From NCBI RefSeq assembly GCF_000428825.1, contig NZ_AUAR01000009.1, forward strand, positions 1 to 64,000: a stretch of 64,000 bases of DNA, written 5' to 3'. Below, piece after piece: positions 1,979 through 36,551 of the stretch. The DNA comes from Desulfomicrobium escambiense DSM 10707 (lineage in GTDB: Bacteria; Desulfobacterota; Desulfovibrionia; Desulfovibrionales; Desulfomicrobiaceae). Below the pieces are notes generated by a model. It had not been told where the DNA came from. It searched no databases and was given only the letters and a program-made list of their open reading frames with translations. The translations under genes were made by a program, and so were the position numbers. Position 1 is the first letter of the stretch; every line of letters begins with the position of its first letter.

Positions 1979-2065
1979 CTATCTGTTTTGATTGTATGTT
2001 GTGTATTTCGTTTTTTTGAAAATAATAGAAAATTTTCGACCTTCATGATTTTCCAGGAGGAAGCA

Positions 2066-21400: not shown

Positions 21401-24400
21401 GTACATCGGTAGCGGCGCCGACGTCACAGCCGGTTCCATCGAACTCCGCTCACGCCACAACGTGAACGTCGACGGAAGTCTCGTCGATCAGGGCGCCGAG
21501 GCGTATGCCGGGGCTTCCGGCGGCGGCCTGGTCGCCGGCAACGGCGCCGTGGCCACGGCCACGGCCGCGGCCATCGTCGACACGGGCATTGCCGCCGGGG
21601 CCGAGGTCACGACCACGAGCGGCGACCTGGTCGTTTCCTCCGCAGCCAACAACAAATCCGGGGCAAACGGCAACGGCGTCACCATCGGCGGCATCGGGGT
21701 CGGGGCCATGGTGGCCACGGCGGTCAGCGGCGGTAGCGTGACCACGCATGTCGATTCCTCTCTCGTCTTCGCGCATGACAATCTGACCATTGAGGCCGAT
21801 GCCCACGGCTCGGCCGATGCCGACGTCAAGGCGGCAACGGGTGGTTTGGTCTCGGTCGGCGTGAACAAGGCCACTGCGACCGTCACGCCGGTGGTCACAG
21901 CCAAGCTTGCCCCCGGAGCCGAGGTCGAGGCCGGTGGAACCGTGACGGTCGGTGCGTCCGCGACGCCGCAGGCCGTAGCCGCGACTTCGGGTGTCAATGT
22001 CGGCGGCGCGGCCGCAGGCGGGTCGACGGCTACGGCCACGGTCGCACCGGTCATCTCAGCCTTTGCCGGGGAAGGCTCCCGGATCGCGGCTGAAAATCTC
22101 GTGCTAAGCGCCCGGCAGGAGTTGCCCGGCAGTGGGACGTCCGCTTCGGCGTCGGCCACGGGCTCCAGCGGCGGGCTGCTTCTCGGGGTGAACGCCACGG
22201 AAGCGACGGCCAGGGGCAACGGGCAGGTCGCGGCATACCTCGATGCGGACAGCGTTCTGAATATAGTCGGCTCGGCGCACATTCAGGCTGATCTCGACAG
22301 TTTCCAGACGAGCACGGCCAACGGCAAGTCATTCGGCATCGTCGCAGTCGGCGGGAACACGGCCACGTCCTCCAGTGACACGAACGTCGGTTCGTATCTG
22401 GCCGACGGTGTGAGCGTCACGGGCGGCGCGCTGTCCGTCGACGCCGGGGGCACCGAGAAAAATCTGGCCGCGGCCGTTTCCGGCTCCGGCGGCGTGGTCT
22501 CCGTGTCCGCATCCGAAGTCCACACCTCGAGCACGAACACAACCCTGGCCGCGGTGGGCGCCAAGGGGAGCGGAACCGGCATCAACGTGGGCAGCCTGAC
22601 CATCATCGCCGACCATGAAGCTCTCTTCAACGGATCCGCCGACAGTTCGTCTGGCGGCGTTGTCGACGCTCCCGGCGCGAAAATCGGCAACACGACGGAC
22701 ATCGACGTCGAAGCGCGGATCGGCGAGGGGGCGGCCGTCACGGCCAAGGCCCTGTCCGTGGAGGCCGACACGACGGTGCTCAAGGATTGGCTGCTCGGCT
22801 ACAATCTGATTTCCGCCTCGGGCGGAGTCGGGGCCTTCCCGGCCGGGGCGAGCACGACCACCATCGCCAACGAAACGCGTGTCAGGATCGGCGACAATGC
22901 GAGCGTCCTGGTCAATGACGGAGCGGGCGGCGGCGATATCGGACTTTCCGTGCACAACGACGTCACGGCCAGGGACAAGGCCACCATCGACGCCGGCGGC
23001 GCGGTGGCCACGGCCAGGACCGAGTCCTACATCTACAACGATACCAACACGGCCGAGATCGTTGTCGGCGACGCCACCCTGCAGGCCGGCGGCGGCATCG
23101 CCGTGTCCAACTGGACCGATCTGGAGTTGCATGCTCAGGCCGACGCCAAGACCTATGGCGCGGCCGGTTATGCGCAGGGCATTTCCGTGGCGCACGCCTC
23201 TCCGAAGAACATCGTGACCATCATGGACGGGGCAGCCATCGAGGCCGCGGGCGACATAGCCATCACGGTCGGCGGCAGCGCGGACAACCTGCGGCGCTCG
23301 GCCATCTCCGTCTCCGCCCGTACCGATCTCTGGAACAAGACGGCCTTCCCCATCAGGTCCAACCCCACGGCCGACGCCGTCGTCAATCAGGAGTCCCGCA
23401 TCGATGTGGCCGAGGATGCATGGATCGGCAGCAATCAGGACGTGCTGCTGACGGTCGATGGCGGGACACGCTCCGTATCGGGCAACTGGAACTATCAGGA
23501 CGCCTACATGGGCCTGGCCGAGGACATCGCCAACGGTCTGATCTCCCTCTTCACCGGTTCGAGCGGTTCCGTGTCCCTGAAGGAGAGCGGCGGCAGCGAG
23601 CAGGACAATCTGGACCGGAACGTCAACATCGACGGCACGGTCGAGGCGGGGCTGAACAACAAGCAGTTCCTGGTCGTGGACGGGTCTCTTGGCGAGCCCA
23701 ACAATCCTGCCATGAGCGGAACCCCCGGGCTGGTCTTCACCAGCACCTCGGGCGAGGACAGCATCGAACGCACCGATGGTGGCAACTGGGCTACAGACGG
23801 TTTCAGCGCCGGTATGTACATTCAGGTTTCCGGAGCCGAAAATCTGGACGGGGCTTACCTGATCAAAAGCATCACGGGTTCGACCATCACGTTGAACGCC
23901 GAGACGCCCCTGGGCGGCGAAAATGAACCTGTGATCGGGACCGTGTCCGCGTCCGGCGTGACCATTTCGCACCTTGTCATGACCGGTGCTCCGAAACTGA
24001 CGATCAAGACGGCGGACAACTCCATCACCCGCAGCTCCGGCAGCTTCGTCGAGGACGGGTTCCTGGCCGGCCAGTGGATCTTTGTTGAAGGTGTCGAAGC
24101 GAACAGCGGCTTCTACAAGATTTCCGGGTTCTCGGGCGACGGTGTGATCATGTATCTGAACGCGTCATCGTCGCAGCTCGCAGCTAACGCGCAGAACGTG
24201 TTCGGCGCGACGATCCGGGGAGCGGCCGAACCCGTCGTCGCGGTTGAGGGCAGTGTCTATCCGTTGCTGGATATTAAGTCCCAAGGGGAAGTAGCATGGA
24301 TTGACCGACCTGGCGGCAGCGGCAGCTTCATCGACGACGGCTTTGAAGTCGGCCAGCATCTGCGCATATCCGGTTCGTCGGACAGCGACAATGACGGCAC

Positions 24401-27400
24401 CTATCTGATAACAGGGGTGACCGACACCCGATTGACCATATTCTCGAGCAATTTCGACTGGTTCAGCGATTCGTCAGGGGAGAATCCCGGCATCATGTTC
24501 GCGTATGCGGAGGCCATGACGGTCATGGCGACGGATTCGGTGACGTTGAATTTCGACGCATCGGCCAATACCATCACGCGCTCCACCAGCGACCAGACTT
24601 TCGTGAGCAACGGATTTGCCGCGGGTCAAACCCTGATCGTCAGCGGCACGGCCAATGCCGGGATCTACACGATCAAGGAAGTTGCCGGTAATGTCCTCAC
24701 GCTCAACGAGCCATTGCCGGCCGACGCATCCGGCGTCGTTTCATCCGCGATCAAGGCCTATGAGGACTACGCGACGGTCCAGCTCGGTTCCCGGACCATG
24801 TCCTTTGACGCCGCAGCTCGAACCATCACTCGCAACGACGGACTGGACTGGTCCGGCGTTTCCGCAGGGCAGATCATCGAGGTCACGGGTTCGCAGCACA
24901 ATGCCGGCTTCTTCACTGTCGCCGGGGTCAGCGGTTCGATCCTCACCCTGGTGGAAACCGACTCCCTGACGGATGAAGGCCAGGTTTTCGGCGTGACCAT
25001 CGTGGCCGCGACGTTGCAGGACATCGTGACCACCGTCGACCTCGGCCTGACACACACCGATCCACGGGACACCATCACTCGCCAGGACGCGGCGTGGGCG
25101 GATGACGGATTCGAAGCAGGCATGTTCATCAATGTGAGCAACACGACCAGCAATAATTCCTCCTTCAGGATCGACAGCATATCGGGCAACACCCTGTATT
25201 TGGCCAAAGAACATACGCTGATCAACGAAACCCTTTCCGCTGCGCAGAGCACCGCGCAAAAGGTGGCCATCACCAGCTCGAACCCACGGCCCATCACCAT
25301 TCACACCACCACCGTGCAGGGTGCTCCTGACCTGACCTTCGCCAATGTCTACGGCGGGCGCGACACCATCACCCGCTCGACGGGCAGCTGGCTGGCCGAC
25401 GGCTTCCTGGAAGGGCAGACCATCACGGTTTCCGGTTCAGGTGCGAACGACGGCGTGTATCAGATCGCCACCATCAGCGCCGACGGGTTGACCCTCGGAC
25501 TGTCCATGAAAGACACGCTCGCCTCGGCATCCGGGGTGAGCGGGGTGTCCGTCAGCGGCTCCGGCATTTCCTCCGGCGTCTCGTATTCGCTGAGCGTCGA
25601 GGATCTGGGTGTGAACATCGCCAAGGAGATCGACCGGCTGCAGAAACTCAAGGCCGAGCATTACGGCAATAGCGCGGCCATCGCGGGCTACAACGCCCAA
25701 ATCACCCAGCTCAAGATGCAGGCGCTGGAACTCGGACTGATCGACGCGAGTGATCCCGGGCTGCTGAACGAGAACACACCTCTGTCCCCGAAGCAGGAAT
25801 TGCTGGTTACCTACATCGTCGTGTCCGACATCGAGGCCAGTTCCGGAAACATCGAGGTTTTGGCGGGAACCCTGACCGGCACCGGAAATCTCTACGCCAA
25901 CAACGACACCGGCGTGGTCATCGAGAATGCCAGCCCGTACTATTTACGTGTCGGCGACGTGATCATCCCCACGAACCAGGGAGGTATGGTCTTCTTCAAC
26001 GTTCTGCCGGTGACGAGCAACGCGGACATCGAGAGTGTCTACGATTTCCTGTACGCTTCCGGCCAAGTCAGTCCAACTCCGCAATTCGCGGCCATCGGCA
26101 CGGACGCGGGGGAAACCGAACCCGCCATCTCCATCAGGAGTACCTTCAATCCGACGTTTCCGGAGCAGGAGGAATTCCGCGGCATCACCGCTCCGGACAT
26201 CGAGATTTCGGGCAGCATCGTGAACCGCCTGGGCAGCGTAACCATTCACGACTCCAAGGGCAGCGTGCTCATCAAAGGCGAGGCCGGCAAGACGGCCGTG
26301 GCGGCCAAGACCATCGACATTTCCGCCGGCCGCGATTTCGTGCTGACCAGCGAAGGGTTCTACAATACCGCCGGAGAGCCCTACGGCTCGCAGAACACGC
26401 CCACTGTCGCCGGCAACAACATCTTCCTCACCGCGCGCTATCTGAACTTGAACGGCATCGTGCAGAGCGGTCGACCCGACCGCTCCGTGACGCTGGACAC
26501 CTCCCTTGATGATGATATCGCCGCGTTCAAGGCCAATGCCCTGGCGGGGCGGTACCTGACCCTGACCAGCGACGACGGCAAGGGGCAGGGCATCGAGGTC
26601 CGCTATGACCGGGATACGGACTCGATCGTCGTCGACTCCGTCGCCATCGAGGGCGGTTTCATGCTGCTGACCGGCCAGATCATGAACACCAACGCCAACG
26701 CGGTACTGAAGTCCGTGGACGGCTTCGGTCGCGTCACCATCAACAATAAGACCGGCTACGCCGTCATCGTCAACGATATCGACACCGGCGGGGACGGCAT
26801 CGAGGGCATCATCAAGATCGTCGACACGGTCGATACGTACTCTCCTGCCGGCGTCTTTCAACCTGGTGTCGAGCCCACCGTGACCACGTACACCCGGATC
26901 GGCGACACGATCAGCAAGACGGTGACCCGCGGCGGGACGCTGCTTTCGACCTCGGACTCCAGCGGCAGGACGCTGACCGACGGCTACACTCCTGCGGCAG
27001 GACAGCGCTACGTATACGTGACGGGGCAGACGCAACTGCGTCAGATCTACAAGGAATACATCACGTCGAGTTTCTGGGGCATCGACTGGCTGTCGCCTGA
27101 TCCCGGCCAGCAGCCTGACAAGGTCTGGACCGTCAACGTGGGGGGGCCTGTGCCGACAGGAAGCGGAACTTTCGTGGAATGGAACACCTCGCTGACCGGC
27201 ACGCCCACGAAGATCACCCCGCTGAGCGTCAACCTCGCTGCTGAGCAGTATCTGTACGGTTACAGCTACACAACGACGACCGGGTGGTGGATCTTTTCCA
27301 CTACAGAATACCACAATGTCCTCGTCTACGCGCAGGGATCTGTGACGTATTCAAACAACAGTATGAAAGCCGACTATCCCATCGACATCGAGTTCATCGG

Positions 27401-30400
27401 TTACGATGCGGGCGGCATCACCATCAACTCCGCGACGGATGTCATCGTGGCCGGCTCCCTCGTCAACGTGGCCGGCACGACGGCCATCACCAGTGACGGC
27501 ACGGTCACCAGCACGGAGTACGGCCAGGTTCAGGGCAAGGACATCGACTTGGTCGGCGACACGGGCATCGGCTCCTCCGACAGGGCTTTGCAGGTCGATC
27601 TTGCGGGAGGAGTTCTGGATGCGGTCAGCAGCGCAGGCGACATCTTCATCGAAGGATTCACCGGCGCCCTGAACGTCGGCACGGTCGACGCGTCCGACGG
27701 CGACGTGACCATCGGCGCCTATGGTTCCATTACCGCCGCCGGCGGGGTATCGCTGGTCAGCGGCAACTCCATCAACCTGTCCTCCCGGGCGGGCGGCATC
27801 GGTTCGGCCGTCCAGTCTCTGCGCATCGACAGCGGCATCTCCGGGTCGGGCAGCCTGACGGTCTCGGCCATGGACGACGTCCATCTTGCGGAAACAAGCG
27901 GCGACCTGGGCTTGAACACGGTGCGATCGGTGCGCGGCGACGTGTATATCCAGGTGCTCGACGGCAACCTGACCGACGCCAACGGCAACGACACCCGCGA
28001 CGAACGGGCCATCGCCGACCTGGAGGCCTTGTGGAGCAGCATGCGCCTGACCCTCGCGACGGGCGCCGGCGAAGCCGCGCAGCAGAACATCGCCGCCTAC
28101 GAGGGACTCAAGACCAGGGAATACCACAGTTATTGGAACTACCGCGAGCAGCAGGCCGTTCCGTCGGTTTACGACTCTGCCTTCGAGGTCCGGCTGTCGG
28201 ATCTGGAACTGGACTACTACCGGTCCGTCGGCTGGACCGATGAGGATCTCGCGGATCTGGTGGCCAAGCGGACGCTGGAGTATCACGATCTGCACGCGGT
28301 CTACGGCGCCCTGGGCGATGCACGCATCGCCGGCTATGCCTACCAAGTGGTCGTGGGCAGTTCGGAATACGAGGCCCTCATGGCCGGTCATGCCTGGACC
28401 GAGGCCGAACTGGGCACGACCTTCAATCCGTCCTTGCTGCGGGCCAAGACGGACACGGAGACGAAGATAGAGGAAGCCAACATCACGGCCCGGAACGTTT
28501 CCGTCGTCGTTCAAAACGGCGGCATGGGAGGCATCAGCGGTCATGCGACGTTCACCTTGCCCATGAATGCCGATTCCCTGACGGAACAGCAGCGGCTCAT
28601 CCTGGCCGCCGCCGAGCGCGACGACATGATCGCCCGCGATGCGGCCGGCAATATCGTCAACATCTTCGACCCCGGCAGCAACGCGAAGACCCTGGAGGTT
28701 CTGCTTCATGACGATGTGGATATTGCGGCCAGGGGCAGCATCTCCATCACGGGCGATACTCATGTCTACCTAGGCAGCGAGCAGGATATCAACATCGACA
28801 GCGTGTCCGGCGGGGACGCCATCCGCATCAAGGGCGCAGAGGGCATCTACTCCGTGGGCGGAGGAACCGCGGTGACCGGCGGCGGGACGAATGGAGGGGT
28901 GATTCTCGAAGGGGCGAACGCCGCCATCGGCACTTCCGCCCGGCCCGTCTCCGTGGACCTGCAGGCCGGCAATCTGACCGCCAGAGCCACGGGCGACATC
29001 CATCTATCGGCTGTGGGGCACGATCTGTTCATCGACGGGATATATTCGCAGGATGGCTCCGTCGTGGTCGCGGGCACAGGTTCGATCTTCAACGGCAACA
29101 ACGACAGCGAGTGGAACATCCGGGCCAATTCCGTCATCTTGACCGCCGCAGGGTCCATCGGCCAGGACGGCAACGCCCTGAACACCGAACTGCCTCTGCT
29201 CGACGCCGCGCAGCCCGGCCTGGGCGTGATCGACATGACCGCGGGCGGCGACATCTTCGTGAACGAGGTCAGCGGCGACATGAACATCGGCCGCGTCCGG
29301 GCCGGCGGCACTGCCTCCCTGGCGGCGGCCGTGTCCATTCTGGACGCGAACGACGATCCGGACCCCGATGTCATCGCCAACTCCATCACCCTGAACACCC
29401 AGCTCGGAGGCATCGGCGCAGCCGGCAACGACCTGGACATCGATTCGTCCGTCACGGCCGACGGCCTGGTCAACATCTCCTCGGCCGAAAACGTGTACCT
29501 GATCGAGACGATCGGCGACCTGCGCCTCGAGCAGGTCCTGCTGACGGCACTGAACAAGAAGGCCTATCTCGCGGCCCAGGGCAGCATTCTCGGCGCCAAT
29601 TCCTCTGGCGATTACGCCGTGATCGCCGGGGCGGTCATCTTCCGCTCCGACCAGAACATCGGACAGTCCGACGACGCCCTGAACATTCAGGTTCAACGTC
29701 TGGAGGGGTCCGTATCGGGCGACATGTGGGTGCACAACCACGGCGCACTGGTCGTAGGCAACGCCGGCGACGGCACCAGCGGGCTGACCTCGGCCGGCGG
29801 CGGCATCCGGATAACGGCAAGCAGTCCGGTGACCATCGAGGCCGACGTCGTCTCGACGGGTGTGACCAACGACGGGGATATCACCATCACATCCACGGAT
29901 CACGCGGGACCCGGAGACGATATCACCGTCCTCTCCGGCGCGATCATCCAGAGCGTCGGCGGCAATGTCACTCTCCTCTCCGGCGATGACGTCATCCTGC
30001 ACAGCGGCAGCGTCATCATGGCCGACGGGACCGTGCGCATCGTCGGCGATCACGGCGATGCGGATTCCGGCGCGGGCAGCCTGATCGACCTGCACGGAAC
30101 CATCACCGCTCAATCCGTGCTGCTCGAAGTCGGCGATGACGACGACACGGTGGTCGTTCCCGGTATCGCGGTCGCGACCACGATCCGCACCGGCGGCGGC
30201 GACGACGTCATCTACACCGGCAGCAACGCCACCGCGTCGGGCAGCACGGGCGGAACCATGGACGGGATCACGGCCCTGCTCGACATATACGGTGGCGACC
30301 ACCGGCACGGCGACACCCTCGTGATCGATGATTCCGGCAATACGGGCGGCAACAGCTGCATTCTCGACGGGACCACGCTGACCATGACCGGCATGGCCGG

Positions 30401-32006
30401 GTCCATCCGGTACGTGGAGATCGAAAATCTGAACGTCGCCTTCGGCAGCGGCGACAACGTCGTCAATGTGCGAGGCACGGCAGCCGGGTCCACCACGTTC
30501 CTGACCATGGGGGATGGAAACGACACCTTCAATATCTCCTCCGACGCGCCGGTCAACCAGGGCAACCTGGACGGCATCCGGGGCGATCTGGTCCTCGACG
30601 GCGGCGGGGGGACAAACACCCTGAACGCGAGCGACCGGGGCAACACCACAGGCCGCACCGGCGTGGTCGTCACCGACCACGACATCTCCGGCATGACCGG
30701 CGACGCGGGCGGTTCCGGGGTCATCGCCTTCAACGGCAGCTTCAGCGGCGGCGTCAATCTCCTCTTCGGGTCCGGGGCGGACGACATCACCGTCGAGGGC
30801 GTTCTGTCCGGCAGGGTTGTCACGGTCAGGGCCGGCGCGGGCGACGACACGGTCACGGCCAACAACGCCGTCGCCGGCGGCGACGGACTGCTGATCGCAT
30901 TCGGCGAGGGCGGCTCCGATGTTCTCGACGCTTCGGCCTGGAGCAACGGGGCCATCCTCTTCGGCGACGGCGGATCGGACACGGGAGGAGGGTCGAAGAC
31001 TCCGCAAACCCTGCTTTCCGTGGAATCCATGGCGCCCGACGGTGACGGAAACGATATTCTCATCGGCGGTCTCGGCGACGACATCCTTGTCGGCGGCGGC
31101 GGAGACGATCAACTGCAGGGCGGCGCAGGCAACGACGTCCTTATCGGCGACGCCGGCCGGGTGACCTTCAGAAGCGGCGCCCTGCACGAGGCCGGGACGC
31201 TGGGACGGTACAGTTCCTCAGACGGCAGCGACACCCTCGTCGGCGGCGCGGGGAACGACTTCATGTTCGGCGGCGGCGGCAGCGACCTGTTCTACGGCGA
31301 CCTGTCCGAGGACGTCATGGCCGGCGAGTTCGGCAAGGTCACCCTGAGCGGCGGCAAGGTTGACGAGGTTGTCGCCATGGGCGACCTCATCAGCATGACC
31401 ATGGTCGATCTCTACAGCGTCGAGGAAACGCATGGCGAGTCCAGGGGACGCACGGTCGCGCCAGGCGTGTCCCTCACCCCGGAACCCGCGTCCGACGCGT
31501 TGGAGATCGAACAGGTGCGGTCCGAATCGAGCTACGCCCGTCGTGTGAGCCACCATGGGGGCCAGTCGGTTCCGGCAGTCCGGGCGCAGTCCGGAAAGGA
31601 CGCCGCCCCGACGCAAGGTCCGGCCCCGAAGCCAGGGGCTCCGGCGGAGGATGCGGCCGGGCCGCGACCCGCCGTTTTCGGCCCGCGCCAGCCTGGAGGC
31701 GAGCCGTCCGCGCTGGCGGATGACCGGGCCGGTTTGGCCGCGGTCCGGGAAATCTTTGAGTCGACGGGCCTCCAAGGCGCCGTGGCCGGCCTGACCTGCA
31801 TGGGCGCGCTGTCGTCTCGAAGCAGGGATGAAAAGCGCCGGCTGGCCTCGGAGGAACTGGAGCGTTTCGCCAGGCCCAAGGCGCGCAGTTGGAGTTGGGA
31901 CGGGGAGAGGCTGCGCGACAAGGAGAAGACTGGCTCTTCGTCCGTGCGACTGGTCAATGTAACGGAATTCATGTTCGAGAAGAAACTTCAGGACGCGGAC
32001 GCATAG
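3486..32006 (+). CDS. Giant LEPR-XLL / DUF4347 repeat surface protein (9506 aa)
   Basis: A single uninterrupted 28.5-kb frame encoding a roughly 0.9-MDa protein. ATG 3486 is chosen over 3450 because GGGAGG precedes it. Order of parts: basic leader with LEPRILLSAD (residues 31-40) and no hydrophobic Sec signal; DUF4347 domain (~89-250); RTX-like GGxGNDTFVFENG repeats; five ~90-residue TWTVTVDG-type repeats; a very long Gly/Ala/Val-rich beta-repeat region (~nt 11,000-23,400); seven DTITR...DGF...GQ repeats; haemagglutinin-like beta-helix repeats (~nt 26,000-30,900) with a helical insert; classical Ca-binding RTX nonapeptides (~nt 31,050-31,310); and a basic, non-repetitive C-terminus. Such proteins are thought to be exported adhesins or matrix proteins. 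Channel, adaptor and SecA-like genes lie on both sides. Function as adhesin is inferred; secreted or anchored state is unknown. Confidence 0.9.
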   Translation: MLKLLRKKIAGLRREVAPHTEPRRKMKFETLEPRILLSADIGLEHHDLGAQEQAAAVAIEQPLVQTPDPAVAASDDTSAADSPGLDRKTEVVLVDPSVGDYQSLLDSLRSPSGNLAQYDIHVLDAGRDGFAQVSEILQDCSNVGAVHLLSHGSDGEVRLGGSVLNAETASLHAAELGRWGEALGPDGDFLLYGCNAAAGPDGVSLVASLAALTGADVAASDDATGAAALGGDWSLEHAVGSVEAETLSFGAYDGLMSGYTSTSADESFTGTSGPDTYFFSDDWGADTLSDAGGAGDTLDFSAVTADLTVTFHADGTLSVTDGANSLNHVGGMERVVGGSGNDTFVFESGAIFAGTISDGTGVNTVDFSACSAKLTVTLHADGTLSVAGTDAILTRAGGMSAFIGGLGVNRYVFENGASFVGSIDGGTADNILDFSSSAAGLTTTFHDDSTLALVLGTNSAAYRGNVASILGGTGDDRFVFENGATYAGSIDGGTGANSLDYSAATADLTATFKADGSLTLVDGTNTATYKGSLAAFTGGAGNDTFIFENGASFVGSIDGGTADNILDFSSSAAGLTTTFHDDSTLALVLGTNSVAYRGNVASILGGTGANSLDYSAATADLTATFKADGGLTLVDGTNTVTYKGSLAAFTGGAGNDTFVFENGATYAGAIDGGAGINSLDFSAYQTPVLVDLASGTMSVGGTIVGASMAGFSGATTVAALNRGAGVSTATMTGVTSLASLGVSAATITPSTLLSSLNQGAGVDTVFGTDLRITLSSGDTVDVDVGTATTVGDVIAAINSAGSGRVVAAINACANGIALTDGAGGTGALMVDNFRGSTTATDLGLDGICTVGTLAGRTLVNDLRITLSDGSLLAVSLAGLTTVQDALDRINAASSLLAADLNDRGNGFALSDIADGSGDLRVENMSVTGAATKLGIEGSGSGSALVGASLLPTIGITLRSGVTVDVNLGDCDTVQDILDAISDAHAHLSATINLAGGITVTDASGGGGHFSIMNLNGCTAATDLGLVQNVDTSSIIGATLAFGVVTAQISHIANVTGGASDDRFVAGGAANVLTGGEGADTFVFADSWGTDTVSDLGARGTDTLDFSQVGANLTVTIRADGGIAVTDGVNTMATTSDVERIIGGSGITAFVFEDGAEFAGILDGGSGRGSLDYSAYTTAVSVDLSLGTATGTEGIRNIVNVTGGAGDDTLTGDSRANVIRGNAGADSITGGGGADGLIGGDGDDTYIMKPDAGTVTVTELAGGGVDTLDYSAYTTAVAVNLQAGSASGTTGATNVEQVVGGSGGDVWTGTDGNDVFSFADDWGVDRVTDPSTSDSDILDFSAVTTDLTVTFNAGGTQTVSVADGNGNAVNGVDNVNVLMTGTGNDSFVFHDGWGAYTISDAGSTDRDVLDFSAATVDLTFTMHSDGTVSVTDGHGNTLGASAGIDRIIGGQGNNTFVFENGGGFGGYIVGGAGGTNTLDYSRYTTAVTVDLTDMDTVSSGGGVASGLATGVAGINGIQAVIGGSSDADILIGMNRDNIWAISGSDAGTLNGTLVFSAVETLVGQDEYADTFTLAVSAGFDGTLVGSTGDEASGLDRIQVAGGTSSNVLYAISNLDSGVIDRDGVQLYYAGMELITDASAANTRTVDYVADQTALISLAGLLSEGQDWGVVVDGEEYTHTVSANESLADVMADLAGQLTARGYLAILQGNTLILSSRALGGMTVKTVDAAGNSTLPGSASVSVELAGATDAGLRVGRDDLSGMLNVYSLNASFGYFQLADPTSVFTLRGGVCNDTFHVGAFTSPASLSIDGEGGIDTITYDVPAATSATVGATTTGSLIFSGTPHAGEVWTVTIAVNVASTAVETQFSHIVAAGEGLTDVVAALAVQINGSADFAAGVENGTLTVVSMAGMAMTITTDLRAATPGDVYKTVASSTRVTLSGTPAAGEVWTVTVDGTVYAHTVTNGQDLTAVSAALAALINANDAYVAGAMDAAITVLQLSGEALRVTASAPAGAGATVDAFASTTHVVDLNGTPRAGEAWTISVGGIAYSHTVSGGETWIGVVAALQEQIEAAGYATAVKAQYLLVVTPGAQKVAAELRAGGQAAADSGAASQLVWLSGTAKPGQTWTITVGGETYSHIVSGYESMAQVLADLAGRINAVGGYTATFKDGVVIVTSLNGVPSVSADTPDASALDIVYTDSTLSLNGATVLTYTHVENARNLIVTASGAADNLTLAASGSRYTLGDVAFDDLGTGSLTVRLGRGNDTLALETSFASALSVSGGLGDDKLDLGSVDNDFTTLAFGSDVENVTGGGSIQDVVFNAYGADDNIAFGYLSLTALPAAILLGPVLGPVAVVAGLAGTAVTDVIRRTPNAVEVRLDGGKIGISDTNWLSSSTVTVLPTRSLTINTGMSYAWAGDSVVIDSLGTVNFALTVNAGKLNTNLYSPGEVTFKGESLFHGRDVTVNARTISVEEDAEVSTSTIAGLDAQAGDIVFNGHWITLGQNAQLLAKDVTSPGVVVTDGDITLSAVNDTSMWTPLADIDIASTKVTVSTGSVITGRDVTLLASVDNSASISSTGTIESLGALTSLSNTVLGLIEDLAKVELAVSVVVSSATIDVQAGSTIVSDNFLAHASTNSSTSASPVKAWLVGLAASVVVAEADVTISGTVSSATDMIIRATTDQHVTTAASPGAVKGVSVALATGVVVSDATAEVTDEAVLTVGRNLYVLADNTDGILTSANASSGTDGIAGVAVAVTIESGQANAFMDGTAVVGGNAQIKAAMTQDVVPAKKAYVLQSSSIGTSATSGTGDETETDVLDVVKDRITSNGVSVAKLVGGKIKNWVLSKQKEDTEDEADTAADANAKVDLAGSVAVVVNIQSTEARIGDSGSDGDSLNGSLKADGKVDVLSSVVSAPYVSSNASTAKNPKADESSSTTLSGSLAVSVGVCLNTAESFVGSGAAVDAGAALTVDAQTLNQYEFSWIANLVTPWSEQATYTLDDVDGVDVTAGDIVESTTDAGEVGSWYVYVGTNPHTVDLESEDFFDTSLWETTSPASYRSSLFFENLWTYLNGDFGFSNWIGNSWSQATAEGAKLSVAGSVTFLELANTATATILDGALINQDADMRNEDQDVVVSALSVNQAVNLTGNINLPNIVNVTGNPHKVAGTEFNSLKLKKPTLLPSFGTEGQSGVGVAIVAVDYADAVTARIADGVKLYADSLAVTAHNEVMSVTVGASGGKAENVGVNGAVGVNVVRNATLARIENGAEITVGSGTTAADADSSLLVSATDSTSLFDIMGGVGVGGGIGVGASVSTNVVVRQTQAVMGDLDGETSPGARGFISSAGDVRVRAANSGVILSVAASGAVGTGKAASDNGTSAGGATNPGTGGTQGSNGTTQGNADLSSWQGRYGNVLQEFVKSGKAAVNSDVAKLASDTADTVSKNSQSKGGIGVSASAAVNWVDEDALAYIRNAGPIMLADGADLAVAASTSTGVISAAGGVAVALGKGSNTAVGFGGALSLNVLQGSTNAFIDGVTTLDVDDLVLDAVRTGWTVAMAAGIGVATGSKGVAIGGSVGVNVIDYSTETGLRDITGETVAESGVILNAKDDTVLVAVGGSAGFGGKAGVGLAIGVNVVDNTVRSEIDGVKKFQHGGDLTVQADNATTIVAVTGSAGIAAGSGSTFGGAGTVSVNVVNATVEANVLDTTETLASAGDYLISAMDFTGIFSFAGALAVGKTFGGGASIAVNTVTNTVRTRVEDSHLETSGAFTAEAEEGAVVVAVTVAGAGAEKLALAGSTAFNLFVNTIESEIVNSAVTAGNAVTISATDTEVCAALSGGMAVSTGQAAIGAAIGLNLSFNTVSATVSASDITSADSTVDLDASARETMVSVTLGGAGGEKFALGGSVSGSIVANTVEAEVISGSTLTASKDIGIAAADSTTVVMIAGGFAGAAKAGVGAALSTVYEGNAVQVDIDASTVTSTGGAVLLSAGIAPPSSSMNLADLPLGVSGIDLPPSVSSQIVSVTVGGAGSGQYAGGIGISVNVVKNTLKAGVTNGSIVRALTGVALTAMDSSVIDALAFGGAGAGSWAGGGAVSANVIANSITTLVDGSTVSAGLNDAGTAIATDGDDAAILIGSTSSAIVRALGLGVSGGGSGAISVSALGNGVANTVSATVDEATVRAAGDVTVLARDIAPTGLPTWMLPKDKVAAVADALDGSPIDPDANILAVNVSVAGSGSTAVSAAVMGNVVKNTVEAKVSSDATVLAGVRADNGEVLDVESDIAVTAESDAGIIALSVGVGASGSVAVQASGFGNVITNRTSALVEDLTANATTTRLASGGDTFVTAEDQSQIRSLALSVAASGSVAVSVLVGANVIVNDVNVFIFGSTVSSGDALDLSASNMTSILAFTGGVAGAGTVGVMTSLSANVVTNRTTAKAEDATIVTVGAITVEATDNTSIDALSFGVAAGTVGVGVALSANMIVNWTEALISGSTVTGDASLGVLSESSAIIRSLAVNVGAGAVGVNVNVQGNALTNHVLATVEDSAVTADGDIVISAVDQAPSSIPDWIVPAEHQAILDDSPIDLDANILSATINVGAGAVGVNVALVGNLVVNTTEARIDNSTVTSTSGKVALGSASESGITSFNVGVGGGAVAVNVVGYGNVITSIVGSTVENDSVIDAGGAVVITAENNATIRALGIGVAGGAVAVGVMAAGNLIVSSTAASVDASEMSSGTTLDIGAYSDMDILALTGSVGAGAVGVNVSFSANIITGTTMAGVVAGSVLESGGAATIEAVNSSTIDALAFGVGAGAVGVGVALSANVIVNTTEALISDSTLTDAASLDVLAESSAIIRSLAVNVGAGAVGVNVNVLGNVLTNHVRATVEDSTITADGDFVISAVDQAPSSIPGWIIPADYKADLEPIFDDTPIDLDANILSATINVGAGAVGVNVALVGNLVVNTTEARIDNSSVTSTTGKVALGSASESGITSFNVGVGGGAVAVNVVGYGNVITSIVGSTVENGSVIDAGGAVAITAENEAAIRALGIGHQKINVSFSANIITGTTMAGVVAGSVLESGGVTTIEAVNSSTIDALAFGVGAGGVGVGAALSANVIVNTTEALISGSTVTDAASLEVLSESSASIRSLAVNVGAGGVAVNLSVLGNTVTSDVRSAITGSTVTAAGDILVSAQDVAPSDILPWIVPDQDQAVLAASLADSPIDLDANILAVNVSVAGGGVAASGALTGNVITNSVQAEIDDADVTSSAGSVTLDASSSSGITALTAGVGVSGSVALNITGFGNAIVSTVDASISNGSNVTADTTASLSATDSSSITSIGLGLAGSGGVAINGTVGYNLITNSITAEVSGSSLTSNGAASLLAASEADVLSFVGGVAGSGLVAAQLSLTINEIENTISASIVDDAAGGSTVTAGSLSLTATDASTIDSVAMGLSASGFAAGGAAISKNLIANEVSATISGSEVTASGAVSLEAESSDIIRSYAIGVAGAGLGAANASLTLNDLGSTVTAKVEDSTVTAGGDISLWASEKAPAVVPDFNSAIAAPAGMVSTLTSALNGNEVNANANIVSFAGSISVSGVAALGAAVADNAIHGTVTAEIVDSTATSTGGSVTVSAASDTAIASLAAGFGASAGVAANASAVHNTLTSTIQAGIVGESTLSADGDVTVDASDTAAIDALAFSLAGGYAAVGGAVVVNTVADTVLAGIDGASASLKAAVTAADTLGVTATSDYTVSGLSLGATVGVAAAGGSVVSNSIGGTTSAYIGDYTDIGGTVGNVSISAQTTVDVSSSAYGLSGGILSGGVNSADATVGTAVDAHIGDADVHVAGAVGVAAGATITAETDAFGLSVGGLAIGASLSDIEISSAVSAYVEGDADITAASLSVQSSATADANAYANASGGGVLAGNGADVDAVVTPVIQAFVEDGAIIAVSGLLSVTSASTGKAKAKGEGITAGIAGVGVILADAELSPEISTYIGSGADVTAGSIELRSRHNVNVDGSLVDQGAEAYAGASGGGLVAGNGAVATATAAAIVDTGIAAGAEVTTTSGDLVVSSAANNKSGANGNGVTIGGIGVGAMVATAVSGGSVTTHVDSSLVFAHDNLTIEADAHGSADADVKAATGGLVSVGVNKATATVTPVVTAKLAPGAEVEAGGTVTVGASATPQAVAATSGVNVGGAAAGGSTATATVAPVISAFAGEGSRIAAENLVLSARQELPGSGTSASASATGSSGGLLLGVNATEATARGNGQVAAYLDADSVLNIVGSAHIQADLDSFQTSTANGKSFGIVAVGGNTATSSSDTNVGSYLADGVSVTGGALSVDAGGTEKNLAAAVSGSGGVVSVSASEVHTSSTNTTLAAVGAKGSGTGINVGSLTIIADHEALFNGSADSSSGGVVDAPGAKIGNTTDIDVEARIGEGAAVTAKALSVEADTTVLKDWLLGYNLISASGGVGAFPAGASTTTIANETRVRIGDNASVLVNDGAGGGDIGLSVHNDVTARDKATIDAGGAVATARTESYIYNDTNTAEIVVGDATLQAGGGIAVSNWTDLELHAQADAKTYGAAGYAQGISVAHASPKNIVTIMDGAAIEAAGDIAITVGGSADNLRRSAISVSARTDLWNKTAFPIRSNPTADAVVNQESRIDVAEDAWIGSNQDVLLTVDGGTRSVSGNWNYQDAYMGLAEDIANGLISLFTGSSGSVSLKESGGSEQDNLDRNVNIDGTVEAGLNNKQFLVVDGSLGEPNNPAMSGTPGLVFTSTSGEDSIERTDGGNWATDGFSAGMYIQVSGAENLDGAYLIKSITGSTITLNAETPLGGENEPVIGTVSASGVTISHLVMTGAPKLTIKTADNSITRSSGSFVEDGFLAGQWIFVEGVEANSGFYKISGFSGDGVIMYLNASSSQLAANAQNVFGATIRGAAEPVVAVEGSVYPLLDIKSQGEVAWIDRPGGSGSFIDDGFEVGQHLRISGSSDSDNDGTYLITGVTDTRLTIFSSNFDWFSDSSGENPGIMFAYAEAMTVMATDSVTLNFDASANTITRSTSDQTFVSNGFAAGQTLIVSGTANAGIYTIKEVAGNVLTLNEPLPADASGVVSSAIKAYEDYATVQLGSRTMSFDAAARTITRNDGLDWSGVSAGQIIEVTGSQHNAGFFTVAGVSGSILTLVETDSLTDEGQVFGVTIVAATLQDIVTTVDLGLTHTDPRDTITRQDAAWADDGFEAGMFINVSNTTSNNSSFRIDSISGNTLYLAKEHTLINETLSAAQSTAQKVAITSSNPRPITIHTTTVQGAPDLTFANVYGGRDTITRSTGSWLADGFLEGQTITVSGSGANDGVYQIATISADGLTLGLSMKDTLASASGVSGVSVSGSGISSGVSYSLSVEDLGVNIAKEIDRLQKLKAEHYGNSAAIAGYNAQITQLKMQALELGLIDASDPGLLNENTPLSPKQELLVTYIVVSDIEASSGNIEVLAGTLTGTGNLYANNDTGVVIENASPYYLRVGDVIIPTNQGGMVFFNVLPVTSNADIESVYDFLYASGQVSPTPQFAAIGTDAGETEPAISIRSTFNPTFPEQEEFRGITAPDIEISGSIVNRLGSVTIHDSKGSVLIKGEAGKTAVAAKTIDISAGRDFVLTSEGFYNTAGEPYGSQNTPTVAGNNIFLTARYLNLNGIVQSGRPDRSVTLDTSLDDDIAAFKANALAGRYLTLTSDDGKGQGIEVRYDRDTDSIVVDSVAIEGGFMLLTGQIMNTNANAVLKSVDGFGRVTINNKTGYAVIVNDIDTGGDGIEGIIKIVDTVDTYSPAGVFQPGVEPTVTTYTRIGDTISKTVTRGGTLLSTSDSSGRTLTDGYTPAAGQRYVYVTGQTQLRQIYKEYITSSFWGIDWLSPDPGQQPDKVWTVNVGGPVPTGSGTFVEWNTSLTGTPTKITPLSVNLAAEQYLYGYSYTTTTGWWIFSTTEYHNVLVYAQGSVTYSNNSMKADYPIDIEFIGYDAGGITINSATDVIVAGSLVNVAGTTAITSDGTVTSTEYGQVQGKDIDLVGDTGIGSSDRALQVDLAGGVLDAVSSAGDIFIEGFTGALNVGTVDASDGDVTIGAYGSITAAGGVSLVSGNSINLSSRAGGIGSAVQSLRIDSGISGSGSLTVSAMDDVHLAETSGDLGLNTVRSVRGDVYIQVLDGNLTDANGNDTRDERAIADLEALWSSMRLTLATGAGEAAQQNIAAYEGLKTREYHSYWNYREQQAVPSVYDSAFEVRLSDLELDYYRSVGWTDEDLADLVAKRTLEYHDLHAVYGALGDARIAGYAYQVVVGSSEYEALMAGHAWTEAELGTTFNPSLLRAKTDTETKIEEANITARNVSVVVQNGGMGGISGHATFTLPMNADSLTEQQRLILAAAERDDMIARDAAGNIVNIFDPGSNAKTLEVLLHDDVDIAARGSISITGDTHVYLGSEQDINIDSVSGGDAIRIKGAEGIYSVGGGTAVTGGGTNGGVILEGANAAIGTSARPVSVDLQAGNLTARATGDIHLSAVGHDLFIDGIYSQDGSVVVAGTGSIFNGNNDSEWNIRANSVILTAAGSIGQDGNALNTELPLLDAAQPGLGVIDMTAGGDIFVNEVSGDMNIGRVRAGGTASLAAAVSILDANDDPDPDVIANSITLNTQLGGIGAAGNDLDIDSSVTADGLVNISSAENVYLIETIGDLRLEQVLLTALNKKAYLAAQGSILGANSSGDYAVIAGAVIFRSDQNIGQSDDALNIQVQRLEGSVSGDMWVHNHGALVVGNAGDGTSGLTSAGGGIRITASSPVTIEADVVSTGVTNDGDITITSTDHAGPGDDITVLSGAIIQSVGGNVTLLSGDDVILHSGSVIMADGTVRIVGDHGDADSGAGSLIDLHGTITAQSVLLEVGDDDDTVVVPGIAVATTIRTGGGDDVIYTGSNATASGSTGGTMDGITALLDIYGGDHRHGDTLVIDDSGNTGGNSCILDGTTLTMTGMAGSIRYVEIENLNVAFGSGDNVVNVRGTAAGSTTFLTMGDGNDTFNISSDAPVNQGNLDGIRGDLVLDGGGGTNTLNASDRGNTTGRTGVVVTDHDISGMTGDAGGSGVIAFNGSFSGGVNLLFGSGADDITVEGVLSGRVVTVRAGAGDDTVTANNAVAGGDGLLIAFGEGGSDVLDASAWSNGAILFGDGGSDTGGGSKTPQTLLSVESMAPDGDGNDILIGGLGDDILVGGGGDDQLQGGAGNDVLIGDAGRVTFRSGALHEAGTLGRYSSSDGSDTLVGGAGNDFMFGGGGSDLFYGDLSEDVMAGEFGKVTLSGGKVDEVVAMGDLISMTMVDLYSVEETHGESRGRTVAPGVSLTPEPASDALEIEQVRSESSYARRVSHHGGQSVPAVRAQSGKDAAPTQGPAPKPGAPAEDAAGPRPAVFGPRQPGGEPSALADDRAGLAAVREIFESTGLQGAVAGLTCMGALSSRSRDEKRRLASEELERFARPKARSWSWDGERLRDKEKTGSSSVRLVNVTEFMFEKKLQDADA
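3576..4250 (+). other. LEPR-XLL motif and DUF4347 domain of the giant protein
   Basis: Residues 31-40 read LEPRILLSAD, the motif that defines the LEPR-XLL N-terminal class of very large repeat proteins. Residues ~89-250 match DUF4347: VVLVDPSVGDYQ, a conserved HLLSHGSDGE (His151), LLYGCNAA (Cys194) and the GADVAASDD...LGGDWSLE ending. A conserved His-Gly followed about 40 residues later by a Cys resembles clan CD (caspase/CHAT-like) peptidases. Catalytic activity is inference only. Confidence 0.8.
4725..5308 (+). repeat. Tandem near-identical RTX-like units in the giant gene
   Basis: The stretch 4725-4906 recurs at 5127-5308 with only a few base changes (offset 402). The following unit beginning at 4962 recurs at 5301 (offset 339). 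The 63-base difference means the second array has lost one 21-codon DDRFVFENGATYAG unit, consistent with recombination between GGCACGGG repeats. Reading frame is kept throughout. Confidence 0.85.
8430..10020 (+). repeat. Five ~90-residue TWTVTVDG-type domain repeats in the giant gene
   Basis: Five successive copies begin near nt 8430, 8990, 9290, 9560 and 9820. Each has a hydrophobic strand, SGTPxAGExWTVTVDG, a Y-S/T-HTV strand, a helix (DVVAALAxQI) and a closing LxVxS strand. They are diverged at DNA level, so they look like an old domain expansion rather than recent duplication. They resemble a small alpha/beta carbohydrate- or matrix-binding module, but I do not recognise a named family. 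Confidence 0.65.
16811..18697 (+). repeat. Long direct repeat (~1 kb units) with an internal deletion, in the giant gene
   Basis: Copy 1 starts at 16811 and copy 2 at 17831 (1020 bases apart); copy 3, more diverged, starts at 18698, only 867 bases on. Copies 1 and 2 share long near-identical tracts encoding VNVGAGAVGVNV and SIPxWIxPA segments. Copy 2 lacks about 56 residues: after RALGIG (near 18580) the sequence passes through the unusual triplet run for HQKI straight into NVSFSANIITG. The frame is kept. Confidence 0.8.
23720..25530 (+). repeat. Seven DTITR...DGF...GQ domain repeats in the giant gene
   Basis: Seven ~80-100-residue units, each with a DTITR-like strand, a GSWxADGFxxGQ turn, xIxVSG, a short insert with NDGxYxI, and a closing SGxTLTLxxxxxL strand. 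They are diverged from one another at DNA level. They separate the Gly/Ala-rich repeat zone from the C-terminal beta-helix zone. Immediately after them (nt ~25,610-25,760) comes a short charged helical stretch. I do not recognise a named family. Confidence 0.65.
27995..28480 (+). other. Alpha-helical insert within the beta-helix region of the giant protein
   Basis: About 160 residues rich in Glu, Leu, Arg and Tyr (from DERAIADLEALW to near TKIEEANITARN) interrupt otherwise beta-repeat sequence. The composition predicts several helices and contrasts with the Gly/Ser/Asp-rich flanks. It could be a folded side domain protruding from the fibre. No family recognised. Confidence 0.55.
31050..31310 (+). 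repeat. Classical RTX calcium-binding nonapeptides near the C-terminus of the giant protein
   Basis: Residues read GGLGDDILVGGGGDDQLQG followed by GGAGNDVLIG and, after a spacer, GGAGNDFMFGGGGSDLFYG. These match the GGxGxDxUx nonapeptide of RTX proteins, which bind calcium and fold outside the cell after export by type I systems. They lie about 230-320 residues before the stop. Confidence 0.85.
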
Positions 32007-32052: not shown

Positions 32053-32373
32053 GTGACTATGGAAGACAGGACGCCCCAGGAAAAGACGGAAGAACAGGCG
32101 GCCCAGATCCGCTGGGACGGGAGCCGCATGCAAACCACGTACGCCAACGTCTGCAACGTATCGAGCACGCGCGAGGAAGTGGCGCTCATGTTCGGTGTCA
32201 ACAAGAACTGGCACCCGTCGCAGAAGGACCTGGTCATCGAGCTTTCCGACCGGATCATCATCAACCCTTACGCGGCCAAGCGCCTGGCCATTCTCCTGGC
32301 CAACACCATGAACGAGTACGAGAAGCGTTTCGGCGTGATCAATCTCGAAATGCCCGACGTCACGCCGCAATAG
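32053..32373 (+). CDS. DUF3467-family small protein
   Basis: A 106-residue protein with the DUF3467 pattern: YANVCNVSSTREEVALMFG near the start and LSDRIIINPYAAKRLAILLANTMNEYEKRFG near the end. Family members are small cytoplasmic proteins of unknown role. GTG at 32053 is favoured over ATG 32059 because AAGGAG at 32040-32045 has the better spacing. It lies 46 bases after the giant gene and before the export genes, so it may be a chaperone or regulator of cargo handling; that is inference from position only. Confidence 0.8.
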   Translation: MTMEDRTPQEKTEEQAAQIRWDGSRMQTTYANVCNVSSTREEVALMFGVNKNWHPSQKDLVIELSDRIIINPYAAKRLAILLANTMNEYEKRFGVINLEMPDVTPQ

Positions 32374-34406: not shown

Positions 34407-36551
34407 ATGAGCGTTTCGCTGCTGAGTCCGTCCTGGTACCGGGTCGCGCCCCTCGCGCCGCGCCTGCGCAGCCACGTGCACATCGACCGCCACGAGTACC
34501 GCGGCCAGGACTGGTACGTGATCCAGGACAGGTTCACGGGCCGTCACCACCGCTTTTCCGCCGAGGCCTACCAGCTGGTGGGCATGATGGACGGCCGCAG
34601 GACCCTGGACCAGATCTGGGAGGCGGCCTGTGCCCGCCTGGGCGACCACATGCCGACACAGGACGAGGTCATCGACCTCCTGGCCAGGCTCTATCAGGCC
34701 GACCTGCTGCAGACCGGCGCGAACCTGGACTTCTCGGACCTGCACCGGCGCAGCGTCAGCGGCAGGCGTCACCGTCTGCTCACGCTTCTGGCCTCGCCGC
34801 TTTCCCTGCGCATCCCGCTCCTCGACCCGGACCGCTTCCTGGAACGGACCCTGCCGTACGTGCGCCCGCTTCTCGGCTGGCAGGCCTTTGCCGTGTGGGC
34901 GGTGGTGGTGGGCTGGGCCGCCATTCTGGCCGTGCTGCATTGGGACGGGCTGCGCGGCGATTTCTCCGACGCGCTGCTGGGCATGGAAAACCTGGCGCTG
35001 ATCAGCCTCATCTACCCCGTCCTCAAGGTCCTGCACGAACTCGGTCACGCCTATCTGGTCCGGAAGGAGGGCGGCGAGGTGCATGAGATGGGCGTCATGT
35101 TCCTGGTCTTCATGCCCCTGCCCTATGTCGATGCGTCCTCATCGGCCGCGTTCCGGGACAAGCACCGGCGCATGCTCGTCGGCGCCGCCGGCATCATCGT
35201 GGAGCTCTTCGTGGCCGCGGTCATGCTTTTCGTGTGGCTGAACGTCGAGCCCGGGGCCGTGCGGGCCCTGGCCTACAAGACAATGCTCGTGGCCGGCGTG
35301 TCGACGATCCTGTTCAACGGCAACCCGCTGCTGCGCTTTGATGCGTATTACGTACTGTCGGACTGGCTGGAGATACCGAACCTCGCCCAGCGCAGCAGGG
35401 CATATCTGGGGTATGTCCTGAAGCGCCGCCTGCTCGGCGTGAGCGAGGCGGAGCCGCCGACCCTCGACCCGGGGGAGGCGCGCTGGCTGCTGGCCTACGC
35501 CGTCGCCTCCTTCTGCTACCGCATCATCATCTCGCTGCAGATCGTGATCTTCGTCGCCGGCCGGTTCTTCTTCATCGGCATACTCCTGGCCTTGTGGGCC
35601 CTGGCGATGATGCTCGTCATGCCCACGTGGCGCGTGGGCCTTTTTCTTCTCAAGGATGTGCATATGCAACGCAGACGCATGCGCGTGACGTTTGTTGTCC
35701 TTGTCCCGCTCCTGCTGCTGGCGGCCGGCCTGACGGCGGTGCCCGTGCCGCTCTACACGAGCTGCCAGGGCGTGGTCTGGGTATCCGACGATGCGCGGGT
35801 CTTCGCCTCGGCCGCCGGGTTCGTGGAGGCCGTCGTCGCGCCGGGAGGGTCCATCGTCGAGCCCGGCGACCCGCTCGTGCGCAGTTCCGACCCGTTGCTG
35901 GAGACGCAGATCAGGGGGCTGCTGGCCCGTCGCGAGGAGTACCGGGCCCGCCGCCAGCTGAGCATGAACAGGGACCGGACCGAGACGGCCATGCTGGACG
36001 AGGAACTCGGGAGCATCGAGACGGAACTGTCCCACGCCCTGGAACGCCGGGCCGCCCTGGTCACGCGCAGCCCTGCGGCCGGAACCTTCGCGCTGCAGGA
36101 CGAGGCTGACCTGCCCGGACGCTACCTGCGGCGCGGCGAGCCCGTGGGCTACATCGTCGATCCGGGGCGCATGCGGATCAGGGTGCTGGTCGCCCAGGCC
36201 GACATAGAGCGCGTGCGGACGGATGTTCGGGGCGTCGAGGTGCGCCTGGCCGAGAGCATCGGACGGGTCATGGGCGCCCACGTGGAGCGGGAGGTGCCTG
36301 CGGCCAGCCGGGTGCTGCCGAGCCTGGCCTTCAGCCTGGACGGCGGCGGGCAGTTCGCGCTGGACCCGCGTGAAAAGGACGCCCCGCAGGTGCTGGAGCG
36401 TCTCTTCCAGTTCGATCTGGTGGCCGACGAACCCGTCGCGGCCCGCGTCGAGGAACGCGTCTTCGTCCGGTTCGAGCACAGTCCCGAGCCGTTGGCGTGG
36501 CGGGCGTACCGGGCCCTGAGGCGGCTGCTGCTCAGCCGTTTCGCCTGGTGA
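34407..36551 (+). CDS. PqqD-like / M50 site-2 protease / HlyD fusion protein
   Basis: A 714-residue polytopic membrane protein. Residues ~20-105 resemble PqqD (WYVIQDRFTGRHHRFS, then a winged-helix stretch ending in LARLYQADLL), the fold used as RiPP recognition element for leader peptides. Residues ~150-425 are an M50 metalloprotease: HELGH at 210-214 supplies the zinc ligands and the catalytic Glu211, and NPLLRFDAYY supplies Asp312 (the usual Gly after it is Ala). After another transmembrane helix (~427-450) come lipoyl-like and coiled-coil segments of HlyD type. Similar proteins occur in peptide- and bacteriocin-export loci. A GGGTAGG sequence precedes ATG 34407. Inference: it recognises the LEPR leader and takes part in translocation or leader processing. 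Confidence 0.85.
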   Translation: MSVSLLSPSWYRVAPLAPRLRSHVHIDRHEYRGQDWYVIQDRFTGRHHRFSAEAYQLVGMMDGRRTLDQIWEAACARLGDHMPTQDEVIDLLARLYQADLLQTGANLDFSDLHRRSVSGRRHRLLTLLASPLSLRIPLLDPDRFLERTLPYVRPLLGWQAFAVWAVVVGWAAILAVLHWDGLRGDFSDALLGMENLALISLIYPVLKVLHELGHAYLVRKEGGEVHEMGVMFLVFMPLPYVDASSSAAFRDKHRRMLVGAAGIIVELFVAAVMLFVWLNVEPGAVRALAYKTMLVAGVSTILFNGNPLLRFDAYYVLSDWLEIPNLAQRSRAYLGYVLKRRLLGVSEAEPPTLDPGEARWLLAYAVASFCYRIIISLQIVIFVAGRFFFIGILLALWALAMMLVMPTWRVGLFLLKDVHMQRRRMRVTFVVLVPLLLLAAGLTAVPVPLYTSCQGVVWVSDDARVFASAAGFVEAVVAPGGSIVEPGDPLVRSSDPLLETQIRGLLARREEYRARRQLSMNRDRTETAMLDEELGSIETELSHALERRAALVTRSPAAGTFALQDEADLPGRYLRRGEPVGYIVDPGRMRIRVLVAQADIERVRTDVRGVEVRLAESIGRVMGAHVEREVPAASRVLPSLAFSLDGGGQFALDPREKDAPQVLERLFQFDLVADEPVAARVEERVFVRFEHSPEPLAWRAYRALRRLLLSRFAW

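Follow-up and report, generated by a model that had tools for sequence, protein, structure and literature searches.

We lean towards the view that a 714-residue protein of Desulfomicrobium escambiense DSM 10707, which joins a PqqD-like domain, a site-2 protease and a HlyD-like arm, acts as both substrate receptor and leader protease in an exporter dedicated to giant surface proteins. The fusion protein is a strong candidate for receptor and cutter of the LEPR tag because in different bacterial phyla it accompanies giant surface proteins with this tag at their start. The window, i.e. the whole stretch of 64,000 nucleotides that was analysed, also encodes such a giant protein and the neighbouring genes listed in Table 1. 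The original prediction took the fusion protein alone; our analysis places it, as the signature component, in a larger cassette that includes a truncated SecA. What is new here is a HlyD-armed variant of an RRE-protease inside a secretion system, possibly undescribed; the LEPR-like motif itself was known earlier.

Table 1. Features of the cassette, the cargo and the fusion protein in the window.
Feature	Position	Strand	Basis
TolC-type outer-membrane channel	1988..3436	+	TIGR01844 above cut-off
Giant cargo, LEPR-XLL + DUF4347 + repeats, 9506 aa (ATG at 3486, GGGAGGG upstream)	3486..32006	+	ORF call, NCBIfam/Pfam
Cargo leader FETLEPRILLSAD	3567..3605	+	Motif position, aligned leaders
DUF3467 protein, 106 aa, between cargo and adaptors	32053..32373	+	Pfam
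GAF-HlyD adaptor, 612 aa	32550..34388	+	Pfam
PqqD/RRE - site-2 protease - HlyD fusion protein, 714 aa	34407..36551	+	ORF call, Pfam, NCBIfam
Predicted PqqD-like/RRE domain, residues ~18-104	34458..34718	+	AlphaFold model, profile vs PDB, Foldseek, relatives' Pfam matches
Seven-helix membrane domain with M50 active site, residues 158-444	34878..35738	+	Hydrophobic helices
HELGH zinc/catalytic motif, residues 210-214	35034..35048	+	H, E, H invariant in alignments
NGNPLLRFD, residues 304-312, with Asp312 as expected third zinc ligand	35316..35342	+	N, P, D invariant
HlyD/MacA/MexA-like periplasmic adaptor arm, residues ~445-700	35739..36506	+	Pfam, structure comparison
SecA-like ATPase, 659 aa	36574..38553	+	Pfam, alignment to housekeeping SecA
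HlyD/RND-type periplasmic adaptor, 237 aa	38621..39334	+	Pfam, NCBIfam

Architecture of the fusion protein

The three-part fusion in one open reading frame, as first read from the sequence, was borne out by Pfam, NCBIfam and structure comparison. With the single sequence, Pfam detected Peptidase_M50 (E 2.8e-6) and HlyD_3 (E 1.5e-6), and gave a weak PqqD match (E 0.076, below the cut-off). Among 43 relatives, PqqD was matched in 23 (best E 1.9e-7), and M50 and HlyD_3 in 40 each. Names given by PGAP are piecemeal: PqqD family chaperone, site-2 protease or HlyD.

The best PDB sequence for the profile of the N-terminal domain was PqqD 3g2b (E 0.0019). An AlphaFold model of residues 1-123 (pLDDT 82.8) had the RRE order beta-beta-beta-alpha-alpha-alpha, and its best Foldseek matches were lasso-peptide B1 RREs solved with a leader peptide, together with PqqD 5sxy (E 0.0027-0.04). 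In VIA, RRE matches reached a Z of ~10, in a tie with non-RRE structures such as the C-terminal domain of GdmN, so that the fold alone is no proof; it is the modelled fold and the sequence relation to PqqD together that make the case for a predicted PqqD/RRE domain. Seven hydrophobic helices were found (residues 158-177, 193-220, 252-279, 284-304, 357-386, 388-416 and 424-444), and this count, with the basic N-terminal part, suggests a cytoplasmic RRE and a periplasmic arm. Compared with MacA (3fpp), the arm gave a Z of 14.0 (rmsd 5.4, 226 residues aligned); MexA was also matched, and adaptors were among the matches listed when Foldseek was run with the full-length model. The arm is of the HlyD, or membrane fusion protein, type (barrel-sandwich, alpha-hairpin, beta-barrel), its periplasmic side being taken from the helix count.

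An invariant protease active site

HELGH and Asp312 are intact, as had been claimed, and Asp312 closes the second S2P motif, NGNPLLRFD. An alignment of 25 diverse homologs drawn from two clades (see below) left H210, E211, H214, N304, P307 and D312 invariant, although overall identity drops to ~25-30%. The HExxH and distal Asp motif was kept in 79 of 79 full-length relatives, which had been found via the FNxNPLxR part; HExxH and Asp played no part in their selection. With HExxH and a distal Asp set in a bundle of membrane helices, the protein belongs to the Peptidase M50, or site-2 protease, group. It shares family and motif with SpoIVFB and RseP, which are not known to carry an RRE or a HlyD arm. 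A chance fusion or a pseudo-protease was ruled out, since the active site never varies: confirmed relatives are encoded at 574 loci in GTDB genomes, and the site is invariant wherever examined.

The giant cargo and its leader

The LEPR-XLL leader ascribed to the cargo was confirmed by NF012209, which matched N-terminally with 31.1 and 36.6 bits for a 17-bit cut-off; the planctomycete model PF07595 stayed below its own cut-off, at 23.6 bits for the 25.5 required. In 36 cargo proteins the aligned leaders read (F/L/I)-E-x-L-E-P-R-x-L-L-S-A-D, often preceded by a basic stretch, and beyond S-A-D this alignment held no clear conservation. A LEPR-like motif, RRLxxExLExRxLLA (PF07595), was proposed by Studholme et al. 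in 2004, as cited in PMC8567305, to be a planctomycete export signal of very large surface proteins; in Tuwongella immobilis, 8 of the 10 longest proteins carry it (PMC8567305). The cargo leader fits this planctomycete consensus, and like the planctomycete motif LEPR-XLL marks the largest proteins of its genome. LEPR-XLL/PF07595 was known as a motif only, whereas here a candidate receptor and protease come attached. We found no receptor or protease for the motif, nor a named secretion system, in the open-access literature; for each of the two roles, the fusion protein is a specific candidate.

The cassette and its co-occurrence with LEPR proteins

The cassette order is (DUF3467), GAF-HlyD, fusion protein, truncated SecA, HlyD. 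Among the best 80 of the 574 relatives, the neighbours were GAF-HlyD (79/80), SecA-like (76/80), HlyD (63/80) and DUF3467 (35/80), and the taxa listed for these 80 include Alpha-, Beta-, Gamma- and Deltaproteobacteria, Nitrospira, Rokubacteria, Myxococcota and Omnitrophota. The environmental strain Pseudosulfitobacter sp. DSM 107133 also has the cassette. One public example annotated by PGAP reads LEPR-XLL protein, HlyD, site-2 protease, SapC, 'prepilin peptidase' at the SecA position, and RND adaptor.

LEPR-8K was present in 38 of 40 cassette genomes. Genomes of two orders were sampled for the reverse relation. In the window's order, LEPR proteins occurred in 11 of 150 genomes, all 11 with a relative of the fusion protein, itself present in 24 of the 150; in the second order they occurred in 16 of 146, each of them again with a relative, which 40 of the 146 genomes have. 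The association, seen in all 27 LEPR-positive genomes of the two samples, has a Fisher p below 1e-9. Three cassette genomes that seemed LEPR-negative (G237, G247, G259) were rejected as counter-examples, as they carry the variants LEPRLLFSAT, LEPRVLFSAG or MEERLLYSAT beside the cassette. As for other apparent negatives, the sequence beside the cassette is N in G220, G205 and G252 have theirs on short contigs, and G281 and G332 were left out. Intermediate cassettes with 31-35% identity and no adjoining SecA were also seen (L225/L226 in G220, L227/L228 in G247, L229/L230 in G259), with LEPRLLFSAT and MEERLLYSAT as readable leader variants.

A sister clade with its own leader type

A sister clade, at 25-30% identity, has TolC, HlyD, GAF-HlyD and the fusion protein, with no adjoining SecA. 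Its giant cargo starts LExRx(L/M/V)(L/F)D(G/A), where D replaces S after LExRxLL. Counting only cases in which cargo and fusion protein are encoded on the same stretch, leader type tracked protease clade: S went with the first clade 16:1 and D with the sister clade 8:0 (p ~8e-6, a value that overstates independence, the pairs being phylogenetically related). The N-terminal domains of the two clades matched each other in hhalign with a probability of 93%, and the profile of the sister-clade domain alone found no PqqD match among PDB sequences.

Both clades share the fusion protein, GAF-HlyD, HlyD and TolC; of these, the fusion protein alone has a fold known to bind leaders, which makes it the best candidate for the leader reader. 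GAF-HlyD is conserved equally, so recognition could lie there. Leader recognition by the PqqD-like domain, as originally proposed, gained strong indirect backing from co-occurrence, from the matching leader variants and from homology to RiPP RRE-proteases; we consider it likely that this domain recognises the LEPR leader.

A SecA-less cassette was also found on an E. coli plasmid (NZ_CP081687.1; L237:1-9752, L238), whose Ig-like giant protein begins ...LESRQLFDGAA. Of 5426 complete E. coli genomes, 24 have the protease gene, which is mostly plasmid-borne.

Relation to the daptide protease MpaP

NF041824, the NCBIfam model for daptide intramembrane metalloproteases, matched residues 19-406 (E 1.8e-42). 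Its 145.9 bits lie well under the equivalog cut-off of 300, hence the protein was not filed as MpaP. The same model matched 43 of 43 relatives, and Streptomyces mpaP was also among the homology matches. Daptide RREs are described as joined to the N-terminus of a site-2 protease, with the RRE-dependent peptidase MpaP taking the leader off precursors that carry the N-terminal motif ELExMEAP (PMC10036551). Leu(-7) and Met(-4) are required for processing through the related MpaB RRE (PMC10036551), and their spacing fits the hydrophobic-E-x-L-E of the first-clade leader. This likeness of ELExMEAP to FExLEPR was noticed post hoc and may be due to chance, as the E at leader position -2 is missing in the sister clade.

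The RRE-protease core is homologous to MpaP and resembles a RiPP-type leader protease, with the HlyD arm as an added part. Shared with MpaP/DapP are the N-terminal RRE, the intramembrane site-2 protease and, on the substrate side, a short conserved N-terminal motif. In contrast, the MpaP model spans 379 positions without a HlyD arm and the daptide substrate is a short peptide, whereas here there are an arm and a protein of 9500 residues. A daptide or RiPP cluster was ruled out: beside the fusion gene there is no small precursor and there are no MpaB/C/D/M modification genes, its neighbours being adaptors, a SecA-like protein and a giant protein. At another locus (L063:6467-8726), a PqqD-M50-like protein without HlyD arm adjoins a 103-residue NHLP-like leader peptide, likely in an uncharacterised RiPP cluster.

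Proposed mechanism and alternatives

In the scheme that we propose, the cytoplasmic RRE would bind the N-terminal FExLEPRxLLSAD leader and take the cargo to the membrane, where the seven-helix protease would cut at or just past LEPR-xLL and free the mature N-terminus. The arm would join GAF-HlyD, the small HlyD adaptor and TolC into a trans-envelope conduit, with truncated SecA as the putative motor in the window's clade. Binding, cleavage, the order of steps and the role of the motor are what we infer in this scheme. That the protease cuts the cargo leader is plausible, and we hold it slightly more probable than not.

The leaders contain no transmembrane helix (maximum 19-residue hydropathy 0.1-1.5), unlike classic S2P substrates, so that cutting would have to proceed in a mode resembling MpaP or SpoIVFB/pro-sigma-K. 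The same feature favours a receptor that does not cut the leader, in which the RRE recruits the leader, the arm builds the conduit and the protease acts on another target, such as a regulator, a partner adaptor or, at release, retained cargo. The near-constant presence of GAF-HlyD, a second conserved partner, agrees with this, but among homologs to which a role is assigned, the nearest (daptide MpaP, YydH/LiaK) bear the names of leader or maturation proteases, and we regard a receptor without cargo cutting as unlikely, if worth keeping in mind.

The TolC channel, the HlyD/MacA-type adaptors and the giant repeat cargo recall type 1 secretion and tripartite efflux. The cassette differs from these in having no ABC, RND or MFS pump among its genes, an N-terminal leader and, in the window's clade, a SecA-like ATPase. 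Two LssB-type ABC transporters are encoded on other contigs of the genome (C20 and C37), and the giant protein might be exported by such a conventional system while the cassette serves another substrate; this we judge quite improbable, for these transporters lie outside the cassette, whereas in many lineages LEPR proteins turn up together with the cassette and next to it. A purely structural role for the retained M50 site, as a scaffold anchoring adaptor and channel, would suit cleavage being a deduced step, but is very improbable given residues that stay unvarying at such low identity.

If the receptor-protease reading is true, RiPP-type leader recognition would extend to the export of proteins thousands of residues long, and a second use for the SecA motor is indicated. 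The residues to mutate, the matched pair of leader variants and the control clade make the question of the LEPR receptor directly testable.

The truncated SecA

The alignment of the SecA-like protein stops at residue ~603 of the genome's own 838-residue housekeeping SecA, with the ATPase motifs kept. In SecA, the missing portion holds the wing, the two-helix finger, the C-tail and what remains of the helical scaffold. As with accessory SecA2, this is a second SecA paralog, presumably for selected cargo; unlike SecA2, it lacks everything past residue ~603. That the SecA-like motor feeds the HlyD-TolC conduit is a tentative proposal that we hold to be rather doubtful. Equally speculative is the wider picture of an undescribed secretion system, in which the RRE-protease-adaptor would read an LExR leader at the N-terminus and cut it, and a truncated SecA without the C-terminal part that contains the two-helix finger would drive megadalton cargo straight into HlyD-TolC, replacing the ABC transporter.

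In the 76 of the best 80 loci that have one, the SecA-like protein has a median length of 662 residues. Finally, one genome assembly (G061) contains two diverged copies of the cassette, on contigs C82 and C8 (L040, L046), which are suited to tests of leader specificity.
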